Of a stretch of 57,912 nt of DNA, positions 50,003-55,870 are shown in pieces (the first letter of the stretch is position 1; each line of letters opens with the position of its first letter). This stretch comes from Verrucomicrobiales bacterium. GTDB taxonomy: Bacteria; Verrucomicrobiota; Verrucomicrobiia; Limisphaerales; CANJXF01. The translations under genes were made by a program, and so were the position numbers. The stretch lies in assembly GCA_947478865.1 (NCBI GenBank), contig CANJXF010000027.1, positions 1-57,912 on the forward strand, read 5' to 3'. The notes beneath the pieces are model-generated. The model did not search any database and was not told where the DNA came from. It was given only the letters and a program-made list of their open reading frames with translations.

Positions 50003-50074
50003 GTCTGAGGGGAAATTTCAAAGGTTCATCGTCCTAGGTTGCAAAAAGTTCTGCGGTTGCGGCAAACTTGGCTC

Positions 50075-52528
50075 ATGACACCTTCATCTCGCCGTAATTC
50101 GGCTGTGCTTTGTCTGTTGCTGGGCAGTTTTCTGGCCATCACCCCTTTCGGCTTGAGCGCAAAAGGCAATTCCACCGGCGAACCTGAAAACGCGAAAAAT
50201 CCCCAGGCGGTTGCCGAGGTGCAATCCGGCCAGCGCACGACGGCAAACGCGGCCTGGTGGGGGTTCAATGCCGAGGACGCAACCGAGGCGCTGCAGGCCG
50301 CGATTCGCTCGGGCGCAAAACGCGTGATCGTGCCGAACGTGGGCAAGGACTGGGTGGTCCGTCCGCTTCAACTGGCCAGCGATCAGGAACTGTTTCTCGA
50401 GAAAGGCGTGGTGGTCACGGCAATGCGCGGGGCCTACCGCGGTGGCGGGGACAGCGTCTTCACCGCCAATGATTTAACCAACGTGACGGTTCGTGGTTAC
50501 GGCGCAACGGTGCGAATGCAGAAGGAGGATTACATCGTCGGCAAGGTGCTCAAGGACCTTGGCTGGAATCGCTGGTATGGCCAATACGAAAAAGCGGAGT
50601 GGCGCATGGCGCTGGCGATTCATGGTTGTGCGAAGGTGAAAATTGAGGGGCTGACTCTTCGGGACAGCGGCGGGGACGGCATCTACATTCAAGGCGGCGG
50701 AAAGCTGAGCTACTCAAAGGACATCCACATCAAGGAGGTGATTTGCGACAACAACTATCGCCAGGGCATCAGCATCATCAGCGTGGATGGGCTGATCGTG
50801 GAAGACAGCGCGTTCAACAATACGTGGGGCACCCCGCCTTCCTCCGGCGTGGATATCGAGCCGGATTCCGCGAATGATCGCATCAAGAACGTGATCTTCC
50901 GCAGCTGTCGCTTTGCGGATAACTACGGCGACGGCATTGAAGTCTTTCTCGGCAACCTCAAGACGAATTCGGAGAACGTTTCCATTCTGTTCGACCGCTG
51001 CACTGTCACCAGCCGGCGCGGGCCGGGCATTCGCTTGACGCGCATCAACGACGATGGCCCCGATGGCCTGATCGAGTTCCGCAACTGCGTCGTGGAAGGC
51101 ACGGAGGGCTATGGATTGAAAGTGCGCGACAAATCCGCCGACCGTGCGCGCGTGCGCTTTGTTGAATGCACCATTCGCGACGCGGCGCGCGACCGGAATT
51201 TCGCTGACCTGTGGGCGCCTATCGCCCTGGAAGCGTCGCAATCGGATCGGCAAAAAAGATTCGGCGGCGTGGAATTCGTGCGGTGTGTTGTCGAGGACAG
51301 CAGGCCGCGTCCTGCAATTCTAGGTCGCGCGGAAACCGGTTTGTTCAACGTGACCGGCGATATCACGGTGAGAAGCTCCCATGCGATCAAATCCGACCTC
51401 GGCGCGAAGCAAGAGGGCATGGCTCTGCGCGTAAGCGAAGCCAGGCTTTCCCCGTTTCAGAACGTCAAAGTCTTCTCCGAGCCCGGCCGCTTCGGAGGCT
51501 GGCCCGCCAACCACGGTATCTGGTCCTGGGAGAACGAAATCCTGGTCGGCTTCAGCCGCGGCTACTACAAGGATCTCGGGGACAGCCACAACATTGATCG
51601 CGAGCGGCCCGAGGAACACCTGCTTGCCCGCAGCCTCGACGGCGGCGAGACCTGGAGCATTGAAGATCCCTCGTTGCACGCTGCGCTCATTCCGGCAGGG
51701 AAAGCCCTTCACGGCATTGCCCCTTCCAACGCAAAAGAAAACCCGTGGCGCGACTGCCCCGGCGGAATTGATTTCACCCATCCCGACTTCGCGATGGCTC
51801 TCCGCATGACCGGCGTGGCAAGTGGTCCCTCACGGTTTTATTACTCCACCGACCGTGGACACCGCTGGGAAGGTCCTTTCGGCCTGCCCATGTTCGGCCA
51901 GAGCGGCGTTGCGGCGCGCACCGACTACCTCGTCAACGGCCCCGGCGAATGTCTTCTGGTCCTGACCGCAGCGAAGCCGAACGGCGAGGAGGGACGCCCT
52001 TTCTGCGCGCGCACGAGTGATGGCGGAAAAACCTGGGAATTTGTCTCGTGGATCAACCGTGATCCAAAAGGCTACGCGATCATGCCTTCGACAATCCGCT
52101 TGAGTGACAGTGAACTTCTGACCGCCATCCGTTGCCGCGACGACGAGAAAGCGCGGATTGAGACCTATCGTTCACTCGACAACGGCCAGCATTGGAAGTT
52201 GGAAAATATTCCCGCGCCTGACCTGGGCACCGGCAACCCGCCGAGCATGATTCGGTTGAAGGATGGGCGCGTCTGCTTGACCTACGGGCATCGCGCGCCG
52301 CCCTACGGCATTCGTGCGCGAGTGAGCAGCGATGGCGGTCGGAATTGGGGGCAGGAAATCATCCTGCGCGATGACGGCGGCGGAACCGACCTCGGATACC
52401 CGCGCACCGTCCAACGACCGGACGGCAAGATCGTGACCATTTACTATTTTCACGATCAGCCGAAGGGCGACCGCTACATCGCGGCAACCATTTGGTCGCC
52501 GGACGAGAAAACCGCAAACCGAGAATGA
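50075..52528 (+). CDS. fusion of a parallel beta-helix domain and a sialidase-like BNR propeller
   Basis: The 817-residue protein has a signal peptide (AVLCLLLGSFLAITPFGLSAKG), then a right-handed beta-helix (about 60-440) with repeated turns such as VKIEGLTLRDSGGDGIYIQGGG and SVDGLIVEDSAFNNTWG. From about 455 onward is a six-bladed sialidase-like propeller with five Asp-boxes: SLDGGETW (about 520), STDRGHRW (590), TSDGGKTW (647), SLDNGQHW (698) and SSDGGRNW (750). Arg residues that might form the sialic-acid triad are not all obvious. The start ATG 50075 gives the best signal peptide. The fusion of pectate-lyase-like and sialidase-like parts suggests cleavage of complex polysaccharides or glycoconjugates. 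It closes the rightward cluster. Confidence 0.87.
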   Translation: MTPSSRRNSAVLCLLLGSFLAITPFGLSAKGNSTGEPENAKNPQAVAEVQSGQRTTANAAWWGFNAEDATEALQAAIRSGAKRVIVPNVGKDWVVRPLQLASDQELFLEKGVVVTAMRGAYRGGGDSVFTANDLTNVTVRGYGATVRMQKEDYIVGKVLKDLGWNRWYGQYEKAEWRMALAIHGCAKVKIEGLTLRDSGGDGIYIQGGGKLSYSKDIHIKEVICDNNYRQGISIISVDGLIVEDSAFNNTWGTPPSSGVDIEPDSANDRIKNVIFRSCRFADNYGDGIEVFLGNLKTNSENVSILFDRCTVTSRRGPGIRLTRINDDGPDGLIEFRNCVVEGTEGYGLKVRDKSADRARVRFVECTIRDAARDRNFADLWAPIALEASQSDRQKRFGGVEFVRCVVEDSRPRPAILGRAETGLFNVTGDITVRSSHAIKSDLGAKQEGMALRVSEARLSPFQNVKVFSEPGRFGGWPANHGIWSWENEILVGFSRGYYKDLGDSHNIDRERPEEHLLARSLDGGETWSIEDPSLHAALIPAGKALHGIAPSNAKENPWRDCPGGIDFTHPDFAMALRMTGVASGPSRFYYSTDRGHRWEGPFGLPMFGQSGVAARTDYLVNGPGECLLVLTAAKPNGEEGRPFCARTSDGGKTWEFVSWINRDPKGYAIMPSTIRLSDSELLTAIRCRDDEKARIETYRSLDNGQHWKLENIPAPDLGTGNPPSMIRLKDGRVCLTYGHRAPPYGIRARVSSDGGRNWGQEIILRDDGGGTDLGYPRTVQRPDGKIVTIYYFHDQPKGDRYIAATIWSPDEKTANRE

Positions 52529-52592: not shown

Positions 52593-52734
52593 ACTTCCGA
52601 AGTAGCGGCAGGCGTCCGCGCCTGCCGTGGAGGGCGTGCGTCTCGCCGCCCGGAAAAAAGGGATGGAAAGTTTGAGCGGTTCTGAAACGTCCTAGCGGCT
52701 GGATCGTGGGTGCGTTAATCCGCCGGGCGGGGCG
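52593..52734 (+). repeat. 142-bp direct repeat, copy 1
   Basis: Begins ACTTCCGAAGTAGCGGC and ends CCGCCGGGCGG. It contains a perfect 8-bp hairpin GGCAGGCG-TCCG-CGCCTGCC. It is similar over its whole length to the copy at 53354-53494 with small changes. It lies 65 bp after the end of the sialidase-like gene. A GC-rich hairpin of the GGCGGGCGTCCGCGCC kind is a common dispersed repeat in this phylum, from memory. Confidence 0.8.
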
Positions 52735-53353: not shown

Positions 53354-53494
53354 ATTTCCGAAGTAGCGGCGGGCGTCCGCGCCTGCCGTGAGGGCGTGCG
53401 TCTCGCCGCCCGGAAAAAAGGATGGAAGGTTTGAGCGATCCTGAAATGTTCCAGCGCTGGATTGTGGGTGCGCTGATCCGCCGGGCGGGATGCG
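53354..53494 (+). repeat. 142-bp direct repeat, copy 2
   Basis: Similar to 52593-52734 with point differences: the hairpin is GGCGGGCG-TCCG-CGCCTGCC and one base is missing in the CTGCCGTG(G)AGGGCG stretch. It lies directly downstream of the methyltransferase gene stop (53522). Confidence 0.8.
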
Positions 53495-53521: not shown

Positions 53522-54241
53522 TCAGCCGCAAATCTTTTTTGCGATTATCAGATCACTGCAACCGCGATACACTAATTCCTGTTTCAAGATTTGAAAACCG
53601 GCGGTTTCAACCGCACCTCGAAATTGATCTGGCGAGTGCATCCAGTATTTTCCGTGCCGTTGGAGCCTAGCGATTTTTCGGTTCTCGCGGGCAATCTGGC
53701 GACCGCGCCAAAGGATTTTTAGCGTTTCGAGAAGACCATTTTCCCGACACAGGTGTTTGAATAAATAGTTCCTCCAATCAGCTACCTCCATCACACGACC
53801 AAAATCACAGAGGAATACCAAGCCTCCGGGACGGAGCCACGCCGCAAACCGCCGCAATTGTTCCTGTGGCTGTGGCATGGTGTAGAGGGCGTGGACGCTG
53901 GTTATTACATCAAACGCCGCCGCTGGAAATTCGGCCGCTTCAATTGCGCGTTCGTCAACAATCAGGTTCGTGATTTGCCGTGTCTGTGACTTGGCTTTGA
54001 CACAGAGATTCATGCCGAGATCCGGTTCGAGATGAATGATTTTAGCGGTAGGAAGTTTTTGTGCTGCGACAAGCGAGAAGTTGCCCGTGCCAGCACCAGC
54101 ATCCAACACCCGTTGGAGGGGAGTGATGCAGTTCGCCGCGATAAAATCACGGTAGCATTTCACCAATTCCTGATACGCGGGATTGTTTTCCGCCATCAGG
54201 TCATAAACAGCGGCGTATTGACGCCAAGAAACATTTTTCAT
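53522..54241 (-). CDS. class I SAM-dependent methyltransferase
   Basis: The 239-residue protein has the Rossmann-type start VLDAGAGTGNFSLVAAQKLP (motif I, about 45-64), followed by IIHLEPDLGMNL (motif II acidic residue), ITSVHALYTMPQPQEQLRRF and LRPGGLVFLCDFGRV. The C-terminal third is helical and basic (LKILWRGRQIARENRKIARLQR), possibly capping the substrate pocket. It should methylate a small molecule. Its ATG overlaps the TGA of the FeeM-like gene (ATGA, 54238-54241), so the two are translationally coupled. The substrate is therefore likely the product of that enzyme, which is an inference. Base composition is AT-richer than most of the window. Confidence 0.87.
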   Translation of the reverse strand: MKNVSWRQYAAVYDLMAENNPAYQELVKCYRDFIAANCITPLQRVLDAGAGTGNFSLVAAQKLPTAKIIHLEPDLGMNLCVKAKSQTRQITNLIVDERAIEAAEFPAAAFDVITSVHALYTMPQPQEQLRRFAAWLRPGGLVFLCDFGRVMEVADWRNYLFKHLCRENGLLETLKILWRGRQIARENRKIARLQRHGKYWMHSPDQFRGAVETAGFQILKQELVYRGCSDLIIAKKICG

Positions 54242-54885
54242 AGCTCGATTTCGGAGGAGTCAAAGATTCCGCGCTTGTCCCATGGACAGTTCAAACATTG
54301 ATTAAACAACGCGTGTTTTGTCAGGTGCTCGCGGTCCCGCTTCCAATTTAAGGCAGCAAGAATCGTGGGAAAATTGACACCCGGATAGGAGCGGGGACTG
54401 CATAGCTGTTCAAATTTCAGATGCGAGTAAAATGAAAAATGTTCCTTTCGGAATGCCGCAACGATGTAGTCGCATCCAAAATGATCGCCGACACACGGTG
54501 CACTGCTGCAAAGCGCAAGAATTGCTTTCCGGTCTGCTGCGCCGCCCGTAACTGAGATGCGACTCAGCTCTACTAGCCGACTTTGCGGATGAAAGTTTGA
54601 CTCAAGCACGTCCGCGAATGCTTCCATGCAAGGGATTTTGTTCCAGCCAGTCTTACCGAGAAAGATGCAGGTGCGAATGGATCCGACAGTTTGGTCTCGG
54701 CGGTACAAGAGCCAAGTGGGACAATTCACATTCTGGTCGTAGCTGTCTGAGAAAAGGCCTGTAGCATTAGGCTCAATAAACCCTTGTTCAACGTAAGCCT
54801 CGTATCGAATCTGAAATGCTCGGACGCGCTCATTCTTCTCGGTGGCCGCTGCCAGCAAATATCCATGACGGCTAAAACTGCTCAT
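54238..54885 (-). CDS. FeeM-like N-acyl amino acid synthase
   Basis: The 215-residue protein resembles FeeM and related GNAT-fold enzymes that join a long acyl chain, taken from acyl carrier protein, to an amino acid and are structurally related to LuxI autoinducer synthases. Visible hallmarks: an N-terminal VRAFQIRYEAYVEQGFIEPN (R27-Y28, like the RY(R)VYV start of the family), LFSDSYDQN, and the LVELSRISVTGG segment (about 104-115), matching the E-x-SR-F/I-x-V motif of the FeeM/LuxI fold. The C-terminal tail has a CLNC pair (Cys197 and Cys200), unusual. It overlaps the methyltransferase by four bases and the upstream small gene by 14. No acyl carrier protein gene is nearby. Confidence 0.75.
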   Translation of the reverse strand: MSSFSRHGYLLAAATEKNERVRAFQIRYEAYVEQGFIEPNATGLFSDSYDQNVNCPTWLLYRRDQTVGSIRTCIFLGKTGWNKIPCMEAFADVLESNFHPQSRLVELSRISVTGGAADRKAILALCSSAPCVGDHFGCDYIVAAFRKEHFSFYSHLKFEQLCSPRSYPGVNFPTILAALNWKRDREHLTKHALFNQCLNCPWDKRGIFDSSEIEL

Positions 54886-55066
54886 TTATCAATTCGGAAG
54901 CTCCGCTTTCCGCAGCCATTAACCACAACCGACCCGGCGACGGTCGGAAACTTTCACTCGGCAAGAGCGGACGGAGTTGGCGTGTGTAGTCCCCGTGTTT
55001 AAGTAGCCGCATATCATTGATGGGAAGTTGTTCCCCGTGACGCTCCGCAGCCAATGACAGTTTCAT
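54872..55066 (-). CDS. 64-residue protein upstream of the acyltransferase
   Basis: The small protein from ATG 55066 is not recognised. It is mixed in charge with a basic first half (LSLAAERHGEQLPINDMRLLKHGDYTRQLRPLLPSESFR) and ends WLMAAESGASELINEQF. It lacks the DSL serine of acyl carrier proteins and has no signal peptide or membrane segment. Its 3' end overlaps the FeeM-like gene by 14 bp, so expression is tied to it. It may be an accessory, regulatory or substrate peptide. The upstream gap contains a 33-bp palindrome (55125-55157). An alternative start further upstream would add 27 residues that look non-coding. Confidence 0.55.
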   Translation of the reverse strand: MKLSLAAERHGEQLPINDMRLLKHGDYTRQLRPLLPSESFRPSPGRLWLMAAESGASELINEQF

Positions 55067-55124
55067 TATTATTTGTTTACGTTCTGTAATACACGCCAAG
55101 GGTGTCACTACTGGTTCTTGCCCG

Positions 55125-55157
55125 CTAGAGGCATACGCCTCAGGCAAATGCCCCTAG
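55125..55157. repeat. 33-bp palindromic repeat, copy A
   Basis: CTAGAGGCATACGCCTCAGG followed by CAAATGCCCCTAG: an imperfect palindrome with CTAG at both ends. It matches the copy at 55553-55585 except for a few bases in the left arm. It lies 58 bp upstream of the 64-residue protein gene. Confidence 0.75.
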
Positions 55158-55552
55158 TGCGAAAATGGGTTTTGCTTCGACTGGAGATTTGGTTTTGGGA
55201 TAAAGGATGGCGATGTGGCCAATTCAGCCTTCGCGATTCCGCTGTTACTGGCTGGTGGGGCTGGTGTGATTGGCCGGTTTGAGCATCTCGGGCTGGCCGG
55301 GCTGGGTGTTGCATCGCGATGCCGTGAAACTTTCATTCTCCCATCTTAACGACATTGGAACCCGCTGGATTGTTCCGGGTGTTAAAGGCTAAAGGGTCAG
55401 CGGGTCGGGGGAGGTGCATTTTAGAAAAACGCACCTCCCCAATCCCAGTCCCGCGCCGTTCTGCCAGACAGCGCAAAAGCGCTTCAAATGGCAGAATTCC
55501 CTCGGCGCCTAATCCGCCCTGCCTCCATTCAACACCATCCCAGAAGAACGCA
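55158..55552. other. Gene-free segment between two palindromes
   Basis: About 395 bp, without a convincing gene. It contains a strong hairpin (55408-55440) and GC-rich tracts. Frames in both orientations are short and unlike known proteins. Because it is bounded by direct copies of a palindrome it may be a single mobile or recombined unit. Confidence 0.5.
55408..55440. repeat. Strong GC-rich hairpin
   Basis: Stem GGGGAGGTGC (55408-55417) pairs with GCACCTCCCC (55431-55440). The inner ATTTT-AGA-AAAAC can extend the helix to nearly 15 bp with a three-base loop. There is no T-run next to it. It could work as an RNA stabiliser or transcription pause; it lies 267 bp upstream of the palindrome copy A. 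Confidence 0.6.
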
Positions 55553-55585
55553 ATAGAGGCATTTGCCTCAGGCAAATGCCCCTAG
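55553..55585. repeat. 33-bp palindromic repeat, copy B
   Basis: ATAGAGGCATTTGCCTCAGG followed by CAAATGCCCCTAG. The arms TAGAGGCATTTGCC and GGCAAATGCCCCTA are inverted copies with one mismatch. It is a direct copy of the element at 55125. Confidence 0.75.
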
Positions 55586-55870
55586 TGGTCAGCGCCAAAA
55601 GGCCATCGGCGAAGTTCAAGACCGCGTGGCGCATGAACTCAGGTTCCCCAAGGTGAGGAAGTTTTCACACCACGTCGGCTCACGGTCGAACCGCGCGATA
55701 AAAACCCCAAACCAGCAGGTGGATTGGTGTCCTGGAACAGGCCGGTTCCGTTCGTGCTGATCAAGGCTGAACCGATGTTCGTCCAAGGTCCGGTGAGCAA
55801 AAGGGGGTGTTCAATGTTTTGGCCATCATGGCAGCGCCGGCAAAATTAGGCACATCGGCACGGTGGTTAA

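Follow-up and report, generated by a model that had tools for sequence, protein, structure and literature searches.

What might a compact set of genes that pairs an apparent acyltransferase with a methyltransferase make in a Verrucomicrobiales bacterium? The window analysed here is the whole 57,912-nt stretch of contig CANJXF010000027.1 (assembly GCA_947478865.1), and the locus in question consists of three open frames on its minus strand, encoding 64, 215 and 239 amino acids. An earlier note, written from the sequence alone, had described them as a three-gene operon of a small protein, a FeeM-like N-acyl amino acid synthase and a methyltransferase (MT), with overlapping genes running in one direction. 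These overlaps and the common direction are seen in the open frames: the first two share 14 bp, and the acyltransferase and MT genes share the 4 bp of an ATGA stop/start (54238..54241, minus strand), which suggests that the two are translationally coupled. At other FeeM-MT junctions, we found 4-bp overlaps (loci L051 and L052) and a 0-bp gap (L064). The locus is also more AT-rich than its surroundings, as had been remarked, yet only mildly so (50.8% GC versus 54.5% for the window, with values as low or lower in 5.7% of equal-sized windows).

While the operon description holds for the FeeM-type and MT genes, it does not extend to the 64-aa frame (54872..55066, minus strand), which is probably no conserved component. 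This frame spans 64 residues from its ATG, or 91 if started at an upstream TTG; its product matches no Pfam or NCBIfam family, and a search of 57 further genomes from the same order gave no homologue. Its codon score is -0.025 bits per codon, whereas 64-codon pieces cut from the long ORFs of the window average 0.25; it is matched or exceeded by 41% of the other window ORFs of 50-90 aa, although the score alone is weak evidence against the frame, given that the FeeM gene scores low as well. With neither a homologue nor a coding signal, we rejected the small protein as a third component of the system, be it as a carrier, a regulator or a substrate peptide.

The palindromes and repeats said to flank the operon are present, all outside the system: an 86-bp intergenic repeat lies downstream of the MT gene (53355..53440, plus strand), with a 95% identical copy at 52595..52678 (plus strand), and a palindromic repeat with a GAGGCATTTGCCTCAGGCAAATGCC core lies upstream of the operon (55119..55161), with a second copy at 55549-55591. 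However, the 86-bp element has 22 matches genome-wide, over many contigs and in part closely spaced (contig C72), and resembles repeat families of the REP or MITE type. Because it is dispersed and not specific to the operon ends, the flanking repeats do not mark a mobile unit, and we discarded the idea that the operon moves by means of them. Elsewhere, the window encodes an 829-aa protein (50039-52528) in which a right-handed beta-helix is joined to a BNR/sialidase-like domain.

The 215-aa protein (54238..54885, minus strand) is assigned as a FeeM-type N-acyl amino acid synthase by its family match and its predicted structure. It scores 108.4 bits (E 3.9e-31) against the FeeM family PF21926, exceeding the cut-off of 27 fourfold, and it carries the residues of the FeeM-type E-x-S-R and D..D motifs, namely E106-L-S-R109 (54559..54570, minus strand; from sequence and alignment), D47 and D50. 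Across an alignment of 24 acyltransferases, R27, Y31, D47, D50, R71, R109 and F152 are invariant. In Foldseek, the best PDB match of its AlphaFold2 model (mean pLDDT 83.6) is FeeM itself (2g0b, E 1.5e-12), with six FeeM chains (2G0B) ranking ahead of acylhomoserine lactone (AHL) synthases and these ahead of other GNATs. Likewise, VIA-align ranks FeeM 2g0b first, with a Z-score of 19.2 and an rmsd of 3.0 for 174 residues; AHL synthases reach 16.8 and other GNATs at most 15.9. As a single query, the sequence is too divergent to retrieve relatives from genome and viral contigs, and against the PDB it yields only spurious matches; a profile of its family leads to AHL synthases there. The FeeM-like identity proposed in the earlier note is thus borne out, including by comparison with a FeeM structure, and the protein neither aligns better to unrelated GNATs nor lacks the E-x-SR motif. 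From fold and motif, we strongly infer that the enzyme would N-acylate an amino acid.

The 239-aa protein (53522..54241, minus strand) is a class I SAM-dependent MT, which we assign by its match to Methyltransf_23 (68.3 bits, E 8.6e-19) and by its homologues to a FeeM-linked subfamily. We define this subfamily by full-length similarity to the MTs of roseobacters, Deinococcus and gammaproteobacteria together with conserved residues, of which the window MT has Y9, Y13, D14, N20, N187, Q194, W200 and H202 in the alignment. Full-length homologues are 33-65% identical and almost all adjoin FeeM-like genes; when the MT alignment was run against the GTDB species genomes, the clear family reached down to E 4e-33, with the next match at 6e-17. 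The best NCBIfam match is BioC, although far under the cut-off (E 3.3e-12). BioC is a carboxyl O-methyltransferase. At the family level, the MT's neighbors include further carboxyl O-methyltransferases beside BioC, namely trans-aconitate methyltransferase and CysG/BelI (PMC11408123). Its closest solved relatives by sequence are phosphoethanolamine N-methyltransferases, and N-methyltransferases score equally well. When its model (mean pLDDT 92.3) is compared with known structures, CmoA, CysG/BelI, UbiG and others all fall within 4 Z units, so that the fold does not fix the substrate, and we rejected an assignment read off the structure.

Conservation offers a different clue. Between the window and the roseobacters, the MT is about 42% identical and the acyltransferase about 22%, whereas within the roseobacters MT and FeeM diverge equally (65% and 63%). 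A more conserved MT is expected if it acts on a part that all products have in common. We propose that it methylates an N-acyl amino acid, most likely at the carboxylate; carboxyl methylation is our best reading, not a demonstrated activity.

The FeeM-MT pair itself recurs across phyla. Members of the MT subfamily adjoin FeeM-like acyltransferases in Roseobacteraceae, Deinococcus, Cyclobacteriaceae and gammaproteobacteria, in both gene orders. In the GTDB species scan, the two are direct neighbors in 23 alphaproteobacterial loci, nearly all of them from Rhodobacterales (more than 20 genomes), and a Cyclobacteriaceae genome has them in the order of the window. A search of plasmid proteins likewise found the best MT relatives next to FeeM genes, in Sulfitobacter and Deinococcus. 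The Sulfitobacter plasmid order is MT, FeeM, histidine kinase, while in a Deinococcus actinosclerus plasmid (L043:6264-9622) a single run comprises genes for a fatty acid desaturase, FeeM and two MTs, in this order; the desaturase would be in keeping with unsaturated acyl chains like those of the N-acyl amino acid methyl esters (NAMEs) of roseobacters. On the Sulfitobacter plasmid unnamed03 (L049:4223-6384), we observed an IS256 transposase gene that interrupts the MT, with the FeeM and kinase genes still open. In Carideicomes, both domains are encoded in one ORF, and the more distant Patescibacteria have FeeM beside or fused to a related MT. In the single-ORF form at locus L060, a ribosome-site-like GGAAGG is kept before the FeeM ATG, so a stop codon may have been lost here, without a fusion having evolved.

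In four gammaproteobacteria (L075, L078, L079 and L080), a protein of PilZ-FeeM type adjoins the MT or shares a gene run with it, with an MMPL transporter gene between the two in all except L080; this acylation module is possibly under cyclic-di-GMP control. In the run at L079:1106-7059, a conserved membrane protein precedes the two-domain PilZ-FeeM acyltransferase, the MMPL transporter and the FeeM-linked MT, and comparable runs were observed in the other three.

Two quantitative observations tie the genes together more closely. Among 84 Roseovarius genomes, MT and FeeM are found in exactly the same seven, in nine copies each and about 28 bp apart; for two independent sets of seven, the probability of coinciding would be about 2e-10 (1 in C(84,7)), kinship ignored. 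Furthermore, the pairwise distances of MT and FeeM are correlated (rho 0.91, 26 pairs), to a degree reached by none of 1000 permutations. A point on the other side is that, in the tree, the window FeeM clusters (95/87 support) with a homologue lacking an MT neighbor and branches away from the roseobacter FeeMs. Overall, it is well supported that FeeM and MT share one pathway. The coupling suggested in the earlier note has therefore stood up to a comparison of distant genomes: a separation of the genes in relatives, which would have spoken against it, was not encountered for the second and third genes, while the 64-aa gene found no support. We found no description of the FeeM-MT pairing in the open-access literature.

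In the window's own lineage, the system is scarce. Of 320 genomes of the order, two have close relatives of the window FeeM, the window's own included; the MT is present in 1 of 293, which is the window's own, and in 2 of 388 phylum-wide. The other phylum occurrence (genome G633, locus L149) was rejected as another instance of the pair, since its MT is more distant and has no FeeM beside it. FeeM homologues are found in 52 of the 388 phylum genomes, and because no FeeM-linked MT was seen in the stretches analysed around them, the pair is rare in the phylum. An uncultured bacterium (L050) has an MT 65% identical to that of the window and is probably related to the window genome, given that its phosphofructokinase is 73% identical. 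At that locus, the upstream gene overlapping the MT encodes an acyltransferase of Acetyltransf_5 type, for which BLAST gives no alignment with the window acyltransferase; the position of the MT is thus retained next to a different acyltransferase.

A candidate product class is known from roseobacters. Methyl esters of N-acyl alanine are formed by Roseovarius tolerans EL-164 and those of N-acyl glycine (NAGMEs) by three Loktanella isolates, while Roseovarius sp. D12_1.68 produces related esters (PMC6296433). No candidate synthase genes are known for NAMEs or NAGMEs (PMC11580390, PMC6296433), and the reported products differ from one another in both the acyl chain and the amino acid, having only the amide and the methyl ester in common. 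The R. tolerans type strain DSM 11457 encodes the FeeM-MT pair twice, with a kinase gene after one copy, whereas more than 90% of the genus is without it, and three Loktanella genomes also carry the pair. DSM 11457 is of the same species as the producer EL-164, but a different strain, so that the match is one of species for R. tolerans and of genus for Loktanella; at a carriage of 7 in 84 Roseovarius genomes, a chance match with R. tolerans has a probability of about 8%. This genomic match is consistent with NAME synthesis by the pair, but is not a proof of it.

In roseobacters, the pair is also accompanied by a membrane histidine kinase with a hydrophobic N-terminal half. Its HisKA/HATPase gene lies directly downstream in 24 of the 25 roseobacter-type loci with room for it, one of them ordered FeeM, MT, kinase; at the remaining locus (L056), the opposite strand carries it, about 0.9 kb upstream. 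A Loktanella salsilacus plasmid (L048:3676-6471) combines a kinase sharing 42% identity with its usual counterpart, a FeeM from the sister branch of the roseobacter clade (97/96 support) and a membrane MT of PEMT/ICMT type, which matches PEMT better than ICMT. This MT is an apparent non-orthologous replacement, and implies that a methyltransferase is kept even where its type changes. Together, the roseobacter module and its kinase probably serve make-and-sense signalling. We do not claim this for the window, where no kinase gene adjoins the pair and the sensor half has no homologue in the genome (best E 0.58). We tentatively suggest that acyltransferase, MT and kinase might constitute an undescribed communication system, with the pair as the missing NAME synthase, partly plasmid-borne and reduced to the synthase in the window genome, Deinococcota and Bacteroidota.

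Our main reading, to which we assign a probability of about 0.6, is that 54238-54885 and 53522-54241 form a two-enzyme module, in which N-acylation of an amino acid by the FeeM-type enzyme is followed by capping of the product by the MT, probably as a methyl ester. The FeeM-type enzyme would first transfer a long acyl chain from acyl-ACP to an amino acid at its amino group. Next, the MT would methylate the N-acyl amino acid, most likely on its free carboxylate, to yield a NAME-type lipid. The ester would mask a charge and thereby let the lipid leave the cell or partition into membranes; no part for the 64-aa frame would be needed. In Roseobacteraceae, the added kinase would sense this lipid, while in the window genome, without such a kinase, the lipid may act as a signal, an antibiotic or a surfactant.

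The step most exposed to doubt is the site of methylation. An MT acting on a nitrogen or a side chain is an unlikely but serious alternative, in line with the phosphoethanolamine N-methyltransferases as its nearest solved relatives, with the better PEMT fit of the L. salsilacus enzyme and with Stieleria, where nasY genes lie near methyltransferases in species that make C- or O-methylated tyrosines (PMC12479983). Yet the producers matched by species are producers of carboxyl methyl esters (PMC6296433, PMC11580390), the amino acids of these products vary (Ala, Gly, Val, aminobutyrate) and offer no side chain open to O- or N-methylation, and one MT type is kept across very different acyltransferases. 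Carboxyl methylation, favored also by the amide and methyl ester common to the reported products and by the retention of a methyltransferase in L. salsilacus, therefore remains our preferred assignment.

It is improbable that the two genes are neighbors for another reason, such as shared regulation, with an unrelated MT substrate. A class I MT sequence does not by itself fix the substrate, and in one family member (L076) neither a nearby acyltransferase nor, anywhere in the genome, a PF21926 match is seen; but both gene orders, single-ORF forms, the exact co-occurrence in Roseovarius and the correlated divergence would be very unlikely without a shared pathway. Still less probable, to the point of being nearly negligible, is that the acyltransferase is a GNAT of another kind. 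The GNAT fold is common, many GNATs match the model too, and the genome with the closest relative of the MT pairs it with the unalignable Acetyltransf_5-type protein. Against this stand the top Foldseek ranks, held by FeeM and then AHL synthases, a PF21926 score of four times the cut-off and the conserved E-x-S-R and D47/D50 residues. For the two-enzyme module, what is new is the conserved FeeM-MT pairing and its match to NAME producers. Since the candidate pair occurs twice in a NAME-producing species but rarely in the rest of the genus, and a sensor kinase gene follows it, biosynthesis and signalling become directly testable, and the window extends the module to lineages in which such lipids have apparently not yet been sought.

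Several known systems resemble parts of this module. The LuxI-type AHL synthases have a fold in common with the window acyltransferase, and acyl-ACP chemistry is expected for both, but the latter has no match to their family (Autoind_synth, PF00765) at E up to 1. AHLs form from SAM, and their synthases have no partner methyltransferase. The acyltransferases associated with PEP-CTERM/exosortase systems (TIGR03694) belong to the same broad superfamily, but the match is weak (24.3 bits, under the cut-off of 111.95). FeeM is alike in Pfam family, fold and E-x-S-R motif, yet only about 21% identical in the structural alignment, and the window gene overlaps a dedicated MT whose subfamily we found in no description of FeeM clusters in the open-access literature. 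The stieleriacine clusters come closer in composition, in that nasY, a FeeM-like synthase gene, lies near methyltransferase, ThiF and nitroreductase genes (PMC12479983); however, their products are tyrosines methylated on the aromatic side chain, their MTs cluster with UbiE or SfmM2 (PMC12479983), and no ThiF or nitroreductase gene adjoins the window pair. In the Phc quorum sensing of Ralstonia, the methyltransferase PhcB, the kinase PhcS and methyl 3-hydroxymyristate act together (PMC8578825). That system acts on a hydroxy fatty acid and is described without a FeeM acyltransferase, and no kinase of the roseobacter kind was found in the window genome, but the roseobacter module would play a similar role, combining a predicted MT-made methyl ester lipid with a sensor kinase. 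Finally, NAMEs are the product class expected from a FeeM-type synthase acting with a carboxyl methyltransferase, and the pair is carried by R. tolerans and by several Loktanella genomes, a species and a genus among which such lipids are made.
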